Made by a program: the position numbers and the translations under genes
Part shown: positions 10,288 to 24,171 of the stretch, piece by piece
Layout: the number at the start of each line of letters is the position of its first letter
Position numbering within the stretch: the stretch's first letter is position 1
Notes under the pieces: generated by a model
Seen by the model: the letters and a program-made list of their open reading frames with translations, nothing else
The model's database searches: none
Told to the model about the DNA's origin: nothing
Virus record (IMG/VR): IMGVR_UViG_3300029448_000431
Location: 1-24,202 of that record
Strand: one strand, 5' to 3'
From: a virus
Length of the DNA: 24,202 bases

Positions 10288-10295
10288 ATAAATAT
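10288..10295 (-). promoter_or_regulatory. Putative late promoter motif ATATTTAT before the S74/triplet fibre
   Basis: ATATTTAT on the minus strand, 31 nt upstream of the ATG at 10256, in the gap after the glycosyltransferase. A 6-bp hairpin (TTAGGG with CCCTAA, 10272-10288) directly follows the motif in the leader. Confidence 0.5.
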
Positions 10296-12580
10296 TAACT
10301 AAGTCTACGAGTAATACCTTCTATTACGGTTTCAGGTAATATTTTTTTAGTGCATTCAAATTGCCTTGGAGTATCTTTATGGACAGGGCACCAATTCCAA
10401 TCACCGGCATCTAATTTGAAATTATTAAAACAAGAATTACATACATTTTTATTAATAATTCTTTCAATATTTGAAGTAAATTCTGTCCAATCAGAACTAA
10501 ATCCAGATATTAATACTACAGGATTTTTAATTGACCAAGATAACCAGGCTAAACCACTAGATACTCCTATATACATTTCTGAATGGTGTAACATATTAAT
10601 TATGTCTTCTATAGGGTGATCACCTGTAGCATCTATTATGTTTGTAAATTTCTTTTGTAAAGGTAATTTATCAGTTTCCCAATTATCATTATATTTTTCT
10701 TTAGAAATCATTACTACTTTATACCCTAAAACATTATTAATATAATTTATAATAGTTTGCCATCCTTCAGGATGGTGCCAATATTTAGCACTTGCAGAAG
10801 CATGTGGAGATATACATATATATTTTTCTTTAAAAGGGCGATCCTTTACTTGATAATTTATCTTAGGTATAATTTCTTTATATTCTAATCCTAATATATT
10901 AGTTGCAGTTTGTTGTAAAGGAAATTGTTTTGGATCATATGGTTGTTTAAAACCTTCTAAATTATCATTATCATCATAATACCAACCTATTTCATACATA
11001 GCATATAAATTAGGAACAGTAGCTCCAGGAGATACAAATTCTAATTCAGGATATTTTTCTTTAAAAAATTTATTCCAAAACGTAGATACAATTACATGGC
11101 AATTATGTTTTTTCTTAAATTCTAAAGCATAAGGGAACCAGGCTAAAGTATCACCTAAAGCTTTAGAACCAAAAGCTATATAAACTCTTTTACCAGATGC
11201 ATTATATTTATGAGAATATATTACTTCTCCAAAATTATCTTTTACTTGTATATCCCAATTTATAAAAAATTTATGAAATGTTTTACCCCAATGGTCATTT
11301 TTTAGATTAACTGAATATTCACTTTGGTTAGTATCTTGATTTATAAAATCTACTAAATATTCTTGGTTAGAATTTCTTAAGCATGCATAAGGACCATCTA
11401 CAAAATTTACATCTAATCTAGGTGTTTTGGTTTTGGGAGTAATTTTTATTTGTTGTAAACGATTATATGCTTTTTTTGCTTGATTTTTCCATGAATATTC
11501 TTCTCTTATTTCTTTAGAACGATCTAAATGCCACTTTTTCCATACATTATAATTATTATAAGAATCTTTTATTTTTTCAACTAAATCATCTAAATCAGGA
11601 GTATAAAAGTTACCAGGTATATTTTTTCCTGCTTTTTCTTCTCCTAATATTTCAACCCCCAATCCTTTACTTTTAGTAAATTCTAATTGCCCTGAACATT
11701 TAGTATAAATTGATGGGGTACCACAAGCTAGAGATTCTATTAAAGGTAAATTCCAACCTTCTGCTTTAGCACAGGAAATTAATACATTAGCATTTTGTAA
11801 TAATTTAATATATTGTTTTCTATTTAAAAATTTTAATATTTTTATTCTATTATCTTCTAATCCATGGTATTTTAATCTTTCTTCTGTTGAATTCATATCA
11901 TCTGTAGGATAAGGATTCTCTACATTTAATAATAATTCAATATCTTGATTATCTGGGAATGCTTTTAGAAAACCTTCAATGCTTTCTTTTATTCCCTTTC
12001 TGTAATCCCATCTCCCAACTATAATAAACTGAAATTTATCTTGTTTTTTTAGTTTAGGATTAGGTTTAAATATTTTTCCATCTACTCCTTCTGGTATTAC
12101 AAATATTTTATTTTCTGGGTATCCTTGTTTAATAGATATTTCTTTTTGCCATTCAGTAGGAACCCATAATTCATCTAAGGTAAGTAATTGATTGAAAAAT
12201 TGATTAGAATATTTAGTTGATTCCCAAACATTATATCCTATTTTATAACCATTATAAGAATCATAAAAATAATGATGATCATGTTCTTCTAAAATTATAT
12301 CTATATCAGATTGGAAATTTTCTTTATGATGGTATATAGGATAATCATTTCTACTTTTATCTGCTTCAAATAATGTTTGTAAATGAAGCATTTTTTTCAT
12401 TTGAGGGGTTATATAAGGTTCTTTGTCATGAGGAGTATTATTAGGCCAATTCCATGATTTTCCTACTGTAGCATTTCTAACCTTAATAGGAATTAATTTA
12501 TCTAATTCAGTAAAAAAAGATTGTGCATGGTTAGCATACCCTGTAGTACCAATAAAACTTGTATGGGCTTGAATTTTCAT
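10295..12580 (-). CDS. Two-domain glycosyltransferase: GT4 half fused to a TibC/Aah-type O-heptosyltransferase half
   Basis: The 761-residue product joins two GT-B transferases. Residues 1-375 look like GT4: V-P-E-G-V-D near 162-167, V-G-R-W-D-Y-R-K-G at 188-196, and the E274-x7-E282 motif in E-G-W-N-L-P-L-I-E-S-L-A-C-G-T-P. Residues 388-761 match the autotransporter O-heptosyltransferase pattern: N-F-V-D-G-P, K-R-V-Y-I-A-F-G-S-K-A-L-G-D477-T-L-A-W-F-P-Y, L-Y-A-M-Y-E-I-G-W, Y-I-C-I-S-P-H-A-S-A-S-A-K-Y-W, and Y-I-G-V-S-S-G-L-A-W-L-S-W. Four cysteines, C714-x2-C717-x13-C731-x11-C743, fit the iron-binding cysteine cluster that I recall from TibC. TibC/Aah enzymes add heptose to Ser/Thr in repeat proteins. 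The neighbours on both sides are Ser/Thr-repeat fibres, which makes virion fibres plausible acceptors. Sugar donors and acceptor are unproven; host surface glycans are an alternative. It lacks a clear promoter octamer and starts 32 bases after the preceding fibre gene. Confidence 0.85.
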   Translation of the reverse strand: MKIQAHTSFIGTTGYANHAQSFFTELDKLIPIKVRNATVGKSWNWPNNTPHDKEPYITPQMKKMLHLQTLFEADKSRNDYPIYHHKENFQSDIDIILEEHDHHYFYDSYNGYKIGYNVWESTKYSNQFFNQLLTLDELWVPTEWQKEISIKQGYPENKIFVIPEGVDGKIFKPNPKLKKQDKFQFIIVGRWDYRKGIKESIEGFLKAFPDNQDIELLLNVENPYPTDDMNSTEERLKYHGLEDNRIKILKFLNRKQYIKLLQNANVLISCAKAEGWNLPLIESLACGTPSIYTKCSGQLEFTKSKGLGVEILGEEKAGKNIPGNFYTPDLDDLVEKIKDSYNNYNVWKKWHLDRSKEIREEYSWKNQAKKAYNRLQQIKITPKTKTPRLDVNFVDGPYACLRNSNQEYLVDFINQDTNQSEYSVNLKNDHWGKTFHKFFINWDIQVKDNFGEVIYSHKYNASGKRVYIAFGSKALGDTLAWFPYALEFKKKHNCHVIVSTFWNKFFKEKYPELEFVSPGATVPNLYAMYEIGWYYDDNDNLEGFKQPYDPKQFPLQQTATNILGLEYKEIIPKINYQVKDRPFKEKYICISPHASASAKYWHHPEGWQTIINYINNVLGYKVVMISKEKYNDNWETDKLPLQKKFTNIIDATGDHPIEDIINMLHHSEMYIGVSSGLAWLSWSIKNPVVLISGFSSDWTEFTSNIERIINKNVCNSCFNNFKLDAGDWNWCPVHKDTPRQFECTKKILPETVIEGITRRLS

Positions 12581-19689: not shown

Positions 19690-21342
19690 TTAGATTACTT
19701 GTAAATCTGCAACATGTACTTTTCCATAGAATTCAGGTCTTACCATTTTCTTAGCATATCTAGTCATAATACCTTTTCTTGGAGTGAAAGTATTAGGATC
19801 GTACACTAATGGTGTCATGATTAATGGAATATATGGAGCATATACAGCACCACTTTCTAGGAATTGGTTACCTCTAAATCCTAACAAGATCGTGTTTTCA
19901 GTCATGTAAGGGTTTTTGTAAACTTTATATCTGCTGTTTAATGCACCAATTTTCTGTACACCAAATGCATATTGCATTTTAGCAGCATCCCCGTCAGTAT
20001 CAGCAGCGAATCCTGGAATAGATTCTAATATTGTAGCTACTGTTGGAGAAACAACCATAAAGTTAGCACCACCTCTTAAAGTTTTCTGGTGGATTAAGTT
20101 AGAGATTTTCTGTAATTTAATTCCAAGAGTTTGGAACCAACTCATTTGTGTATAATATACACCATCTGTGTTAGATGTAAAAGCTGTACCAGCTGTGTTA
20201 ATTTCGTTACCTACTTTAGCTGACCATTCAGCCACCTGAGTTGTAGGTACGTTTTCAATTAACATATCTAAAATTTCAAGATCGATTTCTAATGAAATAT
20301 ACTCACTTAAAATATTAGTTAATTCTGCTTCAGCATCTAATGAATGAAATGCATTTAAATCCTGAGAGAATTCTGGTGTCCATTGTGCTTTTAACTTTCT
20401 TGTTTTAGCAGCAATAGTTTCACTTCTTAATTGAACATCGATTTCTGGGATGTTAATTGCTCTACCAGTACCTGTCTGAGAAGAGTAATTAGCATTATCT
20501 TCGAAGTCACCTCTTGCGTTATCAGCAGTTTGCTTGTTATAGAAAACAGTAATGTCTTCATCACTTTCAACACCTGATGATGTTACAAAGAATTCAACAC
20601 TATCTCCGTTTATCTTAGTTAACGCTGGGAAGTTAAGAGCCTCTGTAATTACAGCTAGTGCTCCGTTAGCACCAGTTACTCTCCATCCTCTTACTCCGTC
20701 TACATCAGCACCTGATAAAGATCCTGTTTTAACAGAAATTTTAGTAATTTGACCTGGAGCAGCAGCTACAGAAGCTGATAAATCCGCGTCAAAGTTTACA
20801 TCAGCATAAGAAGCTGAAGATATAGTGTGGTTAGCGTCAGCAACAGAAGCTGAGAATAGGTTAATTGAATATCCGAATCTACCAGCACCGTAAAGACCAC
20901 CTTCGTTTGTATTACCGAAGTGACCATCCGCATAGCTATCACCATACGTTGAATTTCCATCAGTGAATGGAGTTTTACTATTTCCGTACTGGAAGTCTAG
21001 GTAAAATACTAAACCAGCAGGTAAAGACATTGGCTGTACAGAAACGAATTCCTTAGCAGCGATTTGTCCAAATACCTTTCTTACAAGTGGTAATGCTACA
21101 GCAGCATATTGTTCACCTGTACCTGGAGTAAATGTTCCACCTGTCCCAGTAGTGTTAGCTTCAACAACAAGTTGTTTAGCTTGGTTTTCTAACATAATAG
21201 CCATGTTAGACTTATCAGTTTCCTGAGTTATTCCCTCTAGTAATCCTGATTTTTCCCACTTACCCGCTAATTTAGCAGCATCTTTTTGTACTGATTTGTA
21301 CGGGTTAGCAGTTTCTAATAGTTGATTTACTACGTTTGACAT
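19690..21342 (-). CDS. gp23: Major capsid protein gp23
   Basis: The 550-residue product is a T4-type HK97-fold capsid protein (T4 gp23 is 521 residues). After a charged N-terminal region comes Q-L-V-V-E61-A62-N-T-T-G-T-G, where T4 gp23 is cut by the prohead protease after Glu65 before Ala66, so E61/A62 is the likely processing site. Next are A-L-P-L-V-R-K-V-F-G-Q-I-A-A-K-E-F-V-S-V-Q-P-M and G-L-V-F-Y-L-D-F-Q-Y-G, the family's conserved start of the mature protein. The C-terminal region has Y-A-P-Y-I-P-L-I-M-T-P-L-V-Y-D-P-N-T-F and ends K-M-V-R-P-E-F-Y-G-K-V-H-V-A-D-L. It builds the capsid hexamers. It follows the scaffold gene by 18 bases and ends in a strong terminator. Confidence 0.96.
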   Translation of the reverse strand: MSNVVNQLLETANPYKSVQKDAAKLAGKWEKSGLLEGITQETDKSNMAIMLENQAKQLVVEANTTGTGGTFTPGTGEQYAAVALPLVRKVFGQIAAKEFVSVQPMSLPAGLVFYLDFQYGNSKTPFTDGNSTYGDSYADGHFGNTNEGGLYGAGRFGYSINLFSASVADANHTISSASYADVNFDADLSASVAAAPGQITKISVKTGSLSGADVDGVRGWRVTGANGALAVITEALNFPALTKINGDSVEFFVTSSGVESDEDITVFYNKQTADNARGDFEDNANYSSQTGTGRAINIPEIDVQLRSETIAAKTRKLKAQWTPEFSQDLNAFHSLDAEAELTNILSEYISLEIDLEILDMLIENVPTTQVAEWSAKVGNEINTAGTAFTSNTDGVYYTQMSWFQTLGIKLQKISNLIHQKTLRGGANFMVVSPTVATILESIPGFAADTDGDAAKMQYAFGVQKIGALNSRYKVYKNPYMTENTILLGFRGNQFLESGAVYAPYIPLIMTPLVYDPNTFTPRKGIMTRYAKKMVRPEFYGKVHVADLQVI

Positions 21343-21360: not shown

Positions 21361-22575
21361 TTAAATAATACCGGCTAGTTTTTGCATTCTAGCTACAAAG
21401 TTATCACTCTCAACAATCGGTTTTTTAGGTGCAACCCCTGCAGCCTTAGAAGCGAATCCTTTAGATTCGTTTACTGGCTTTTTAGTTGCAGTAACTGCAT
21501 CCTTAATTGTTTCGAATAAGTTTTTAACCTCTTTTACTGATTCAGCTTTATCAAATGAATTAATAACTTTTACTTTCTGAGATTCAGTAAGATTCTTTGT
21601 TCTAAATAATTTATTTACGTAAAGAAGTTTAGCATTAAGTAAGTTAACTTCATTAAGTTCTGATTTCAAAGTTTCGATTACTTTAATAGCTTCGTTTAAC
21701 TCAGCTTTTGTTTCATCCATTTTGTCATCTTTCTTAACTTCTGCCATTTCATCCTCTACTTCTACATCTCCATCGTCATCTCCGTCAATAGCAACATCTA
21801 TGTCACCATCTCCATCAACATCGATTTCCATGTCTTCACCATCTCCGCCGCCTAGCACATCTGCCATTACGTCTTTAATGATGTCTTTAAGATCTTCTAC
21901 TGAGATTTCACCTACTTCGTCGTCAGCAGCAGCTTCTTCAGCTACTTCTTCTTCGGATACAGGTGCTTCTTCTACAGTTTCGTCTTTCATCTTGTCTTTA
22001 CCATAGCCCTCTTCAGCGGCTTCTAGTTCAGCAAGTAGTTCGTCAAGATCAATTTCTTCGATTTGACCTTCTTCGTACATGTCTTCATCCATATCTTTAT
22101 CCTTCATTTCTTCGGATACTTCTATAGTTTCATCCATGTCTTCTTTCTTTGCTTCGTCAACGTCAGCTTTAGCTTCGTCCATGTCCTCTTTTTTAGCTTC
22201 GTCCATTTCTTTGTGCTTAGCTTCATCCATGTCGTCCTTTTTGGCTTCATCCATATCGTCCTTTTTGGCTTCATCCATATCATCTTTTGATTTGGCTTCA
22301 TCCATGTCGTCCTTTTTGGCTTCGTCCATGTCGTCCTTTTTGGCTTCGTCCATGTCCTCTTTTTTAGCTTCATCCATTTCGTCTTTTTTAGCTTCGTCCA
22401 TATCTTCTTTTTTTTCTGCTAGATCATCAGATTCTTCTGATAATTTTTTCTCTAACATAGATTGAATCTGTGGAGTAAAAGCTTCTTCAAGAGCGAGTTT
22501 GGCATTAGCTAGAGCAGTTTCTCTAATAGCTTTAGCTTCAGCGATAGCATCGTTGAAAAACTTAGTGTTTGACAT
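21361..22575 (-). CDS. gp22: Prohead core scaffold, gp22-type, with charged octapeptide repeats
   Basis: The 404-residue product lies immediately before gp23, the position of T4 gene 22, and is very acidic and helical, as scaffold cores are. Residues 1-45 form a helical start. Residues 56-150 are about twelve tandem units of K-D-D-M-D-E-A-K type. Residues 160-240 are acidic. Residues 249-270 have an Asp-Gly-rich stretch (D-V-D-G-D-G-D-I-D) resembling calcium-binding loops. Residues 285-365 are a predicted coiled coil (L-N-E-A-I-K-V-I-E-T-L-K-S-E-L). The end is V-E-S-D-N-F-V-A-R-M-Q-K-L-A-G-I-I. I-V-E (residues 387-389) fits the prohead protease preference I/L-x-E. The core shapes the prohead and is then degraded. 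T4 gp22 is only about 270 residues, so the repeats are extra. The gp22 label rests on synteny and composition more than sequence identity. Confidence 0.78.
   Translation of the reverse strand: MSNTKFFNDAIAEAKAIRETALANAKLALEEAFTPQIQSMLEKKLSEESDDLAEKKEDMDEAKKDEMDEAKKEDMDEAKKDDMDEAKKDDMDEAKSKDDMDEAKKDDMDEAKKDDMDEAKHKEMDEAKKEDMDEAKADVDEAKKEDMDETIEVSEEMKDKDMDEDMYEEGQIEEIDLDELLAELEAAEEGYGKDKMKDETVEEAPVSEEEVAEEAAADDEVGEISVEDLKDIIKDVMADVLGGGDGEDMEIDVDGDGDIDVAIDGDDDGDVEVEDEMAEVKKDDKMDETKAELNEAIKVIETLKSELNEVNLLNAKLLYVNKLFRTKNLTESQKVKVINSFDKAESVKEVKNLFETIKDAVTATKKPVNESKGFASKAAGVAPKKPIVESDNFVARMQKLAGII
22126..22410 (-). repeat. Tandem 24-bp repeats encoding D-D-M-D-E-A-K-K
   Basis: Encodes residues 56-150 of the scaffold. 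Ten exact M-D-E-A-K cores and two decayed ones (V-D-E-A-K, M-D-E-T) occur, mostly 8 residues apart, with one 9-residue and one 7-residue spacing. Neighbouring units share most bases, so slippage or unequal crossing over can change the copy number. Confidence 0.9.
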
Positions 22576-22667
22576 TATAAAAATTTTTGGGATTACTTAT
22601 TTGAAAGTAATATAAGTGTGTTTTATTTTGAGGGAGATATTATTGGGAATATCTATCTTATCTGTAA
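22576..22667 (-). promoter_or_regulatory. Long leader of the scaffold gene with two small hairpins
   Basis: Between the promoter octamer and the scaffold ATG are 92 bases without an ORF. On the minus strand AGATATT pairs with AATATCT (22635-22654) and ATTACTT pairs with AAGTAAT (22592-22611). Each has a 7-bp stem and a 6-nt loop and is followed by CCC. Neither is followed by a T-run, so they are not terminators. Confidence 0.35.
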
Positions 22668-22675
22668 ATAAATAT
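22668..22675 (-). promoter_or_regulatory. Putative late promoter motif ATATTTAT before scaffold-capsid genes
   Basis: ATATTTAT on the minus strand, followed by TTACAGATAAG, 92 nt upstream of the scaffold ATG and just after the halogenase stop. It probably drives scaffold and capsid together, with the strong terminator at 19635-19666 as end point. Confidence 0.45.
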
Positions 22676-22683
22676 ATAAAGAT

Positions 22684-24171
22684 TTAGGAAGAATAATTTA
22701 GTTTTATACTTTCTAAAATATCTACATGGTTTACTCTAGGAGGTCCAATAATAGGTAATATTTTTTTATATTCTTCTTTTAAAGATTTTAATTTATCTTG
22801 TGGTAATTGTTGAATTGTTTTTTTGAGTGAATCTTTATCTAACAAATCTAAACCATAATAAGTTTGATAAAAGTTTAATGAACGAAACATTAAATAGGGT
22901 TTATCAAAAAATAATTCATTAGAGAAATTTCCTTTAGAAAAAGGAATAAATGATTCTTTATTAAAGGATGTTATTTCAAAAGGTTTATCTTTCCAGAATT
23001 TACTATCTTTTCTTTTGGAAAAATAATGTAATTGTATATAATCAACATTATTATTAAAAACATCAATCATATGTTTATTGTATTTATTTGAAACTTTTGG
23101 ATTTATTAACCAAGTATTAAAAGAATTTACTAATGCAAAGGCTTGAATTATACTTGATCCTATACTTTGTGCTTCTAAAGGTTCTATAAATCCACTAGAA
23201 AGACCTATATTAACACAATTTTTAACCCAATTTTGATCCACTCTTCCTGCTTCGAATTTAATATCTTTAACAGCCTTTTCTGCATTTATTTTTAAGTGTT
23301 GGTTAAATTCATTTAAGGCACTATCAGTGTTTAAATACCTGTTATCAAATACATACCCATTTCCGTATTTTTTTTGAGTAGGAATTTTCCAAGCCCATCC
23401 CGAATTTAAAGCAGTACATTTTGTATAAGGTTCTATACCTTTATCTAAATTTAAGTTTGTAGATAAAGTAATAGCACGATTCATAGGAAGATATTTTTGA
23501 TAAGAAATAAATTTAGTATTTAGTTTAGAAGATAAAATTCTTTTAAATCCTGTACAATCTATAAAAAAATCTCCCTTTATAGTCTTTTCTTTATTACTTA
23601 ATAAACTGGATATGTTTCCTTTATTATCTAGATTTATATTTTTTATATAATGATCTTCAATTTGTATTTTAATCTCTTTACATTTTTTTTGCAAAAAAAT
23701 ATTTAATTTATGTGTATCAAAATGATATTGATTAGTAGGGTTTAATTCTTGATTGAAATGGATAGAATTTTCCTTAACGAATTTATCAAAATCCATTGAT
23801 AATATATATGGATTATCTTTGGTTTGAATTGATAATAAATCAAACATTTCTATATGTCCTATTGCAGAAGGATTAGGATTAAAATTTATATTATGAACAT
23901 AACTTGATCCAATTTTTTTCCAATCTTTAAATAAAATTCCTAATTTAAAAGTAGCATCAGTTTTTACTATTAATTCCCATGGATCTATACCTACATATTC
24001 TTGAAAATCATTCCAATGTTCAGTAGATCCCTCTCCTACTCCTATTATTCCAACATCAGAAGATTTTATTAATTTAATATTATAATGTGGAAAGGATGTT
24101 TTAAATATTAAAGCTGTAATAAGTCCAGCAGTTCCTCCACCTACTATAACAATATCCCTTATAGGATTCAT
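22684..24171 (-). CDS. Flavin-dependent (tryptophan-type) halogenase
   Basis: The 495-residue product fits the flavin-dependent halogenase family in length. It has the FAD-binding motif G11-G-G-T-A-G16 after a hydrophobic strand, G44-V-G-E-G-S-T, and the catalytic-lysine motif A-T-F-K76-L-G-I. The second flavin motif is D205-C-T-G-F. The halogenase signature W259-A-W261-K-I-P264 is intact, as is S-G-F-I-E-P-L-E333, where PrnA and RebH have their active-site Glu. These enzymes use FADH2, O2 and halide to make HOCl or HOBr, which a lysine directs to an electron-rich substrate. A cyanophage homologue, VirX1, is described as a halogenase. No flavin reductase is seen nearby, so the host must supply FADH2. 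It precedes the scaffold gene; substrate and purpose in infection are unknown. Confidence 0.9.
   Translation of the reverse strand: MNPIRDIVIVGGGTAGLITALIFKTSFPHYNIKLIKSSDVGIIGVGEGSTEHWNDFQEYVGIDPWELIVKTDATFKLGILFKDWKKIGSSYVHNINFNPNPSAIGHIEMFDLLSIQTKDNPYILSMDFDKFVKENSIHFNQELNPTNQYHFDTHKLNIFLQKKCKEIKIQIEDHYIKNINLDNKGNISSLLSNKEKTIKGDFFIDCTGFKRILSSKLNTKFISYQKYLPMNRAITLSTNLNLDKGIEPYTKCTALNSGWAWKIPTQKKYGNGYVFDNRYLNTDSALNEFNQHLKINAEKAVKDIKFEAGRVDQNWVKNCVNIGLSSGFIEPLEAQSIGSSIIQAFALVNSFNTWLINPKVSNKYNKHMIDVFNNNVDYIQLHYFSKRKDSKFWKDKPFEITSFNKESFIPFSKGNFSNELFFDKPYLMFRSLNFYQTYYGLDLLDKDSLKKTIQQLPQDKLKSLKEEYKKILPIIGPPRVNHVDILESIKLNYSS

Follow-up and report, generated by a model that had tools for sequence, protein, structure and literature searches.

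Flavin-dependent halogenases (FDH) attach chlorine, bromine or iodine onto aromatic molecules, and the presence of a gene of this family among the head genes of a phage raises the question of whether it encodes a working halogenase, how it came to its place, and what it might act upon. The window analysed here is the entire record IMGVR_UViG_3300029448_000431 (24,202 bases), in which the gene occupies positions 22684-24171 of the minus strand, with an ATG at 24171 and a single unbroken frame of 495 amino acids. The phage is T4-like. Its major capsid protein Gp23 (19690-21342, minus strand; PF07068, E=5.2e-76) is 57% identical to that of Flavobacterium phage immuto and 51% to that of Microcystis phage Mel-JY01, and the window also encodes tail sheath, tube and neck genes, a head-tail adaptor and a baseplate-hub match (Pfam, PHROG). 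Between Gp23 and the halogenase, as the first gene past the latter, lies a scaffold or prohead core-like gene (21361-22575, minus strand), for which Pfam and PHROG searches gave no match and which was assigned because close relatives of this phage have its homologue at the same place, immediately upstream of Gp23. The original prediction of a halogenase beside capsid genes is thus correct. Such lineage mates are plentiful in IMG/VR, their Gp23 being 61-92% identical over the best segment. We consider it likely, from sequence and a structural model, that the gene encodes an intact two-component FADH2-dependent halogenase whose fold is that of PrnA and BrvH, and that it is a single piece of cargo which this T4-like phage carries between its protease and scaffold genes. 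The arguments and the competing readings are given below.

The protein matches PF04820 over residues 6-446 (E=1.6e-95, 321.1 bits at a cut-off of 21) and PHROG 2928 'tryptophan halogenase' (E=5.3e-108); its best PDB sequence match is PrnA (E=1e-61), VirX1 being matched as well (E=2.9e-40). All the elements from which the gene had originally been called complete were located in the sequence and its alignments, namely GGGTAG at 11-16 (GxGxxG), K76, WAWKIP at 259-264 (WxWxIP) and E333 in the stretch E330-P-L-E333. Their conservation was followed in phage homologues (153 halogenase ORFs, 145 of them full-length, 141 distinct after the removal of duplicates). K76 and W259 are invariant (141/141 each), position 261 is W in 121, F in 19 and L in one, and E333 is kept in 138, the remaining three having G (two) or Q (one). 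The near-invariance of the lysine and the glutamate is the pattern expected under selection for FDH chemistry, while the three replacements indicate that loss of the catalytic Glu does occur in the family. In phage Syn1 (L009, 7995-9431), where this Glu is changed to Gln (EPLQATSI), the enzyme may be inactive or altered in function.

These replacements bear on the reading that the window protein is a flavin monooxygenase or a decayed enzyme, which retained the fold and lost the use of halide. One feature, absent from the original prediction, is in line with it: the halide loop reads EPLEAQSI, and its Q335, aligned with T348 of PrnA, is unique among the phage homologues (1/141). So is the long terminal branch of the gene (1.32 in the careful tree described below), which may reflect relaxed constraint or changed function. 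However, K76, W259, W261 and E333 are kept, the frame is open, and the PF04820 score is 321 bits. PrnA, besides, holds chloride via backbone amides at the halide loop, so that a change of side chain need not matter there and Q335 may be tolerated. We find the loss of halide use very improbable; the enzyme is probably active as a halogenase, as judged from its sequence and predicted fold, with Q335 as the caveat.

The AlphaFold2 model, built from an alignment in which the window protein was joined by 34 viral homologues (35 sequences in all), predicts the full FDH fold (mean pLDDT 87.0, pTM 0.90), the substrate-lid region 91-130 being modelled poorly (pLDDT block means 54-69). In VIA-align comparisons with solved structures it reached Z of 44.1 for AbeH and PyrH, 42.0 for BrvH, 39.7 for MibH and 37.2 for VirX1, as against only about 27 for Bmp2 and CndH, which are FDHs of other kinds; the comparison with 8fov gave Z 44.1 and rmsd 2.6 over 477 aligned residues. 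The protein shares the fold and the chemistry residues with PrnA, RebH, PyrH and Thal but, unlike them, lacks the Trp1 and Trp4 substrate motifs, and no reductase gene was seen with it. Its Trp1 stretch is STEHWN, in contrast to ATIPSL or ATFSxx of the free-tryptophan halogenases (motifs as given in the accessible text of PMC8269204), and neither of the Trp4 motifs published there was found when the protein was read by eye. By Trp1 and Trp4 taken together, the protein falls outside both groups of free-tryptophan halogenases, A and B (PrnA/RebH and PyrH). Since both motifs are missing, free tryptophan is unlikely to be the native substrate, which is probably some other aromatic group, to go by the sequence.

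As to the place of the gene, its ATG lies 4 nt past the stop codon of the prohead protease, of which the window edge leaves the last eight codons and the stop (24202-24176, minus strand). The encoded end, QSGICCLK, was recognized by the matching endings in mates (QSGICCLR in L091, L093, L094 and L098, QSGICCIN in L104). On the other side, the leader of the scaffold gene starts within a few bases of the halogenase stop. In the same five mates both flanks are joined by a short spacer with no gene between them, and tblastn for the halogenase found it in none of 158 mate loci. The halogenase is a single-gene cargo insertion in the slot that separates the prohead protease from the scaffold gene. 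This slot is variable in the lineage, as follows from the gap lengths and the other ORFs in mates: among the 102 mate loci that contain both genes (some are pieces of one contig), the gap is 93-232 nt in 71 and 464-1443 nt, with other small ORFs, in 31. In L180 and L197 it is occupied by Cys-rich ORFs (METKICPTCKVEK... and MQTKTCPTCKIEK...), which resemble zinc-ribbon or HNH-type genes. No mobile element (homing or transposition machinery) was seen in the window. A recent foreign origin finds no support in base composition: the GC content of the gene (24.3%) is the lowest among the 20 window ORFs measured, but at third positions its GC (0.109) does not stand out from the rest of the window.

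The IMG/VR scan with the window protein alone gave four pattern matches, none of them a relative, while the scan with an alignment of phage halogenases gave at least 592 relatives; the 79 distinct loci kept derive from the best 80 of these, and numbers taken from them do not stand for frequencies in the population. The genome scan, run with a tighter alignment (A2), gave 266 matching stretches (243 of them relatives), and the EH signature at the Trp1 position was present in 4 of the 80 genome loci kept. Where genome loci fell within the viral clades, the contigs came from MAGs or single cells; one of these loci (L249) is almost identical to the viral locus L042, and its assembly is among the three, of five checked, in which Gp23 was detected (at the assembly level).

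The clade to which the window gene was assigned is all-viral and carries STEHW. In the quick tree (225 rows) the gene is placed in a 49-row clade consisting entirely of viral sequences (SH-aLRT 99), nested in a 100-row clade of 97 viral and three genome-contig rows; in the careful tree (73 chosen rows) it is in a 17-row viral clade (98/96). The four singletons of this clade (L012, L013, L014 and L017), the nearest single-copy relatives, all have gp45 (clamp) on one side and gp44 (clamp loader) on the other. Like the window halogenase, each is one gene placed between two core genes of T4-like phages, but in the replication operon, and their identity to it is 40-41% over the best segment (42% for L014). 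At four of four loci the sister genes stand in another core operon, which supports mobility of the gene.

The spacing of 4 nt behind a late-type protease gene makes late co-expression plausible, and gene spacing and position suggest that the halogenase is co-transcribed with the protease and expressed late, although TATAAATA occurs in the window no more often than by chance. This part of the original interpretation, which took the late structural block as a sign of action late in infection, may stand. It had further considered a protein of the virion as the substrate, and for this the location in the head operon is not in itself evidence: with the sister genes in the replication operon and the gene absent from the 158 mate loci, the position is that of mobile cargo and tells little of the substrate. 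Adjacency to the capsid gene is atypical as well, because Gp23 was found in only six of 50 halogenase-bearing viral records, where some 6 kb or more separate it from the halogenase.

The viral halogenase VirX1 had been brought in as an indication that such enzymes work on diverse small substrates, with a phylogeny proposed as a check. This comparison is weak: in both trees VirX1 (taken as the 530-aa ORF L006_9508 of Syn10, identified by its length and STLGHF motif) falls in another clade, beside bacterial halogenases, and in the careful tree it belongs to a 7-row phage clade (100/100). We therefore dropped it as a guide to the substrate. VirX1 (6qgm) and the window protein are alike in fold, in the catalytic K and E and in phage origin; they differ in the Trp1 stretch (STLGHF vs STEHWN), and VirX1 has a second halogenase ORF next to it. 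The two ORFs of Syn10 (L006, 7995-9518 and 9508-11100) overlap, and only the other one is annotated as a halogenase, that of VirX1 being labelled 'hypothetical'.

The gene may nevertheless encode a small-molecule enzyme, which would halogenate a metabolite in its free form, made by the host or the phage (indole-like, phenolic or linked to a sugar), with a use in signalling, toxicity or competition. VirX1 and BrvH accept diverse small aromatics in vitro, according to the accessible text of PMC8407142 and PMC8269204; in the jumbo cyanophage S-SSM6a a halogenase is placed inside a predicted secondary-metabolite cluster (PMC7824862, in its accessible part); and the halogenase of S-SCSM2R is downstream of a glycan-type biosynthetic cluster. 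Yet VirX1 is not close kin in the careful tree, and no biosynthetic partner genes are present in the window. We hold this reading to be quite possible, though tentatively.

Genes of this kind are already known, and what is new here is the phage lineage and the insertion slot. Phage tryptophan halogenases were tabulated already in 2010 (PMC2984593, PMC3037559), one survey counted a halogenase in 20 of 153 cyanophages (PMC10452541), and a cyanophage cluster of a halogenase, 2OG enzymes and cupins was read as serving secondary metabolism or polysaccharide decoration (PMC7824862), as far as the accessible parts of these papers go. Our literature search found no report of a head-operon halogenase or a halogenated virion protein in phages, nor of a natural substrate for phage halogenases. 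The phage 'PrnA' halogenases (T4-GC 212 / PHROG 2928, in P-SSM2, P-SSM5, S-H38 and S-SCSM2R) share with the window protein the family annotation, 37-38% identity and a larger clade of 43 rows (100/99, careful tree), and the three that were aligned (S-H38, S-SCSM2R and P-SSM2) have the STEHW or STEHF signature. Unlike the window gene, they come from phages of marine cyanobacteria and, within the regions read, none is in a head-gene operon; the window phage differs from those cyanophages in its Gp23, nearest to the Flavobacterium and Microcystis phages. A parallel in position, Pelagibacter phage HTVC008M, has a lone halogenase in a block of virion genes, between the small and large terminase subunits; unlike the window gene, it clusters with bacterial halogenases (98 in the quick tree, 100/97 in the careful one), overlaps a 2OG oxygenase gene and has a different insertion point. 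Related halogenase genes are common in other aquatic phages, and VirX1 has been characterised in vitro, while the window gene, compact and intact, belongs to a viral clade for which VirX1 is not representative; an assay of it or of a sister would reveal the function of the clade.

The company of halogenase genes in other viruses is of interest in this respect. Two to five PF04820 matches are present in 26 of the 50 halogenase-bearing viral records (in G011 two of the five are fragments of one frame). Matches to 2OG oxygenases occur at 57 of the 79 halogenase loci (those kept from the top 80 among at least 592 relatives) vs none of the 158 mate loci, a control that represents a different phage lineage, so that a positional test within records is fairer. 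PF13640, present in 44 of the 50 records, was used for such a test in the 17 records of at least 40 kb, with coordinates transcribed manually: 33 of 40 matches were at most 5 kb from a halogenase, 12.4 being expected (P about 5e-5). Tandem halogenases of different subclades (window-type, VirX1-side and a third type) with several 2OG-type genes were seen in L019, L015, L018, L025, L035, L045 and L087; in L019 (4493-17110) four consecutive halogenases stand beside 2OG, DUF6445 and JmjC_2 genes.

With this set of oxidative enzymes (halogenases, 2OG-Fe(II), DUF6445 and JmjC-type proteins) one could connect tailoring of proteins or peptides, in which Trp or Tyr side chains of a phage or host protein would be halogenated. 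Apart from the multiplicity of halogenases, the clustering of PF13640 near them and the JmjC_2 neighbour in L019, such a role is suggested by the peptide- and protein-acting FDHs MibH, SrpI and ChlH (PMC12518702) and the FDH-like monooxygenase QhpG, which acts on a protein tryptophan (PMC7876137), both as described in the accessible text, and by a TibC-like protein glycosyltransferase already encoded by the window phage. But the window contains no 2OG gene, there is no 2OG match near the four nearest singletons, and the published view of the cyanophage cluster, in the accessible part of PMC7824862, favours a secondary metabolite or polysaccharide decoration. We regard protein tailoring by the window enzyme as rather unlikely. 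Its wider form is more doubtful still. On this view aquatic T4-like phages possess a phage-specific lineage of STEHW-class halogenases, often in tandems of two to five from different subclades and together with several 2OG/JmjC-type oxygenases, by which side chains of phage or host proteins, aromatic as well as aliphatic, would be modified in the course of infection, with the window gene as a lone member at work in a fibre-glycosylating phage.

Returning to the preferred reading, a two-component FADH2-dependent halogenase, we note that no flavin reductase was found among the window ORFs scanned, as had been stated originally for the vicinity of the gene, and that PF01613 (Flavin_Reduct) was found in none of the 50 halogenase-bearing viral records, while the same search was positive in 13 of 14 cellular genomes. 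After late transcription of the halogenase together with the protease, a flavin reductase of the host would supply FADH2, which would react with O2 to form the flavin hydroperoxide; attack by a halide would give HOX, which would move through the tunnel as far as K76, and, while E333 acts upon the substrate, the halogen would be delivered to an electron-rich aromatic ring. The association with 2OG genes and the absence of Flavin_Reduct-type genes both lead to testable predictions.

The glycosyltransferase mentioned above is a 761-aa fusion (10295-12580, minus strand), in which a GT4-type glycosyltransferase is joined to a TibC-like autotransporter heptosyltransferase domain. The protein matches TIGR04414 with 312.9 bits (cut-off 200) and the TibC structure 4rb4 with E=2e-51, the Cys-x2-Cys...Cys...Cys pattern being aligned, and is conserved in several lineage mates (70-82% identity). 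Its gene lies among fibre-like genes rich in Ser and Thr (S+T 23-34% in the four counted), of which two carry collagen repeats and two S74 domains. These sequence features suggest that the phage O-glycosylates its own fibres.

One more feature adjoins the halogenase. The conserved leader of the scaffold gene (22592-22675, minus strand) contains ATATTTAT and two 7-bp hairpins (22654-22635 and 22611-22592), and is also found 5' of the scaffold gene in mates (L091-L241). An Rfam search gave three matches, all under the gathering score and none within the leader. RNAalifold on the MAFFT alignment of the leaders recovered the second hairpin only, because the first was misaligned, and stem 1 was therefore scored per sequence. 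Among 43 distinct copies, all seven pairs of stem 1 are formed in 39 (4.9% of shuffles attain that), with 18 distinct stem sequences and both-sided changes at six of the seven positions; in stem 2 A-T switches to G-C in step in all 43 copies, the remaining letters being fixed by the search pattern. Given these compensatory changes, we propose the covarying leader as a candidate cis-regulatory element of the capsid operon.
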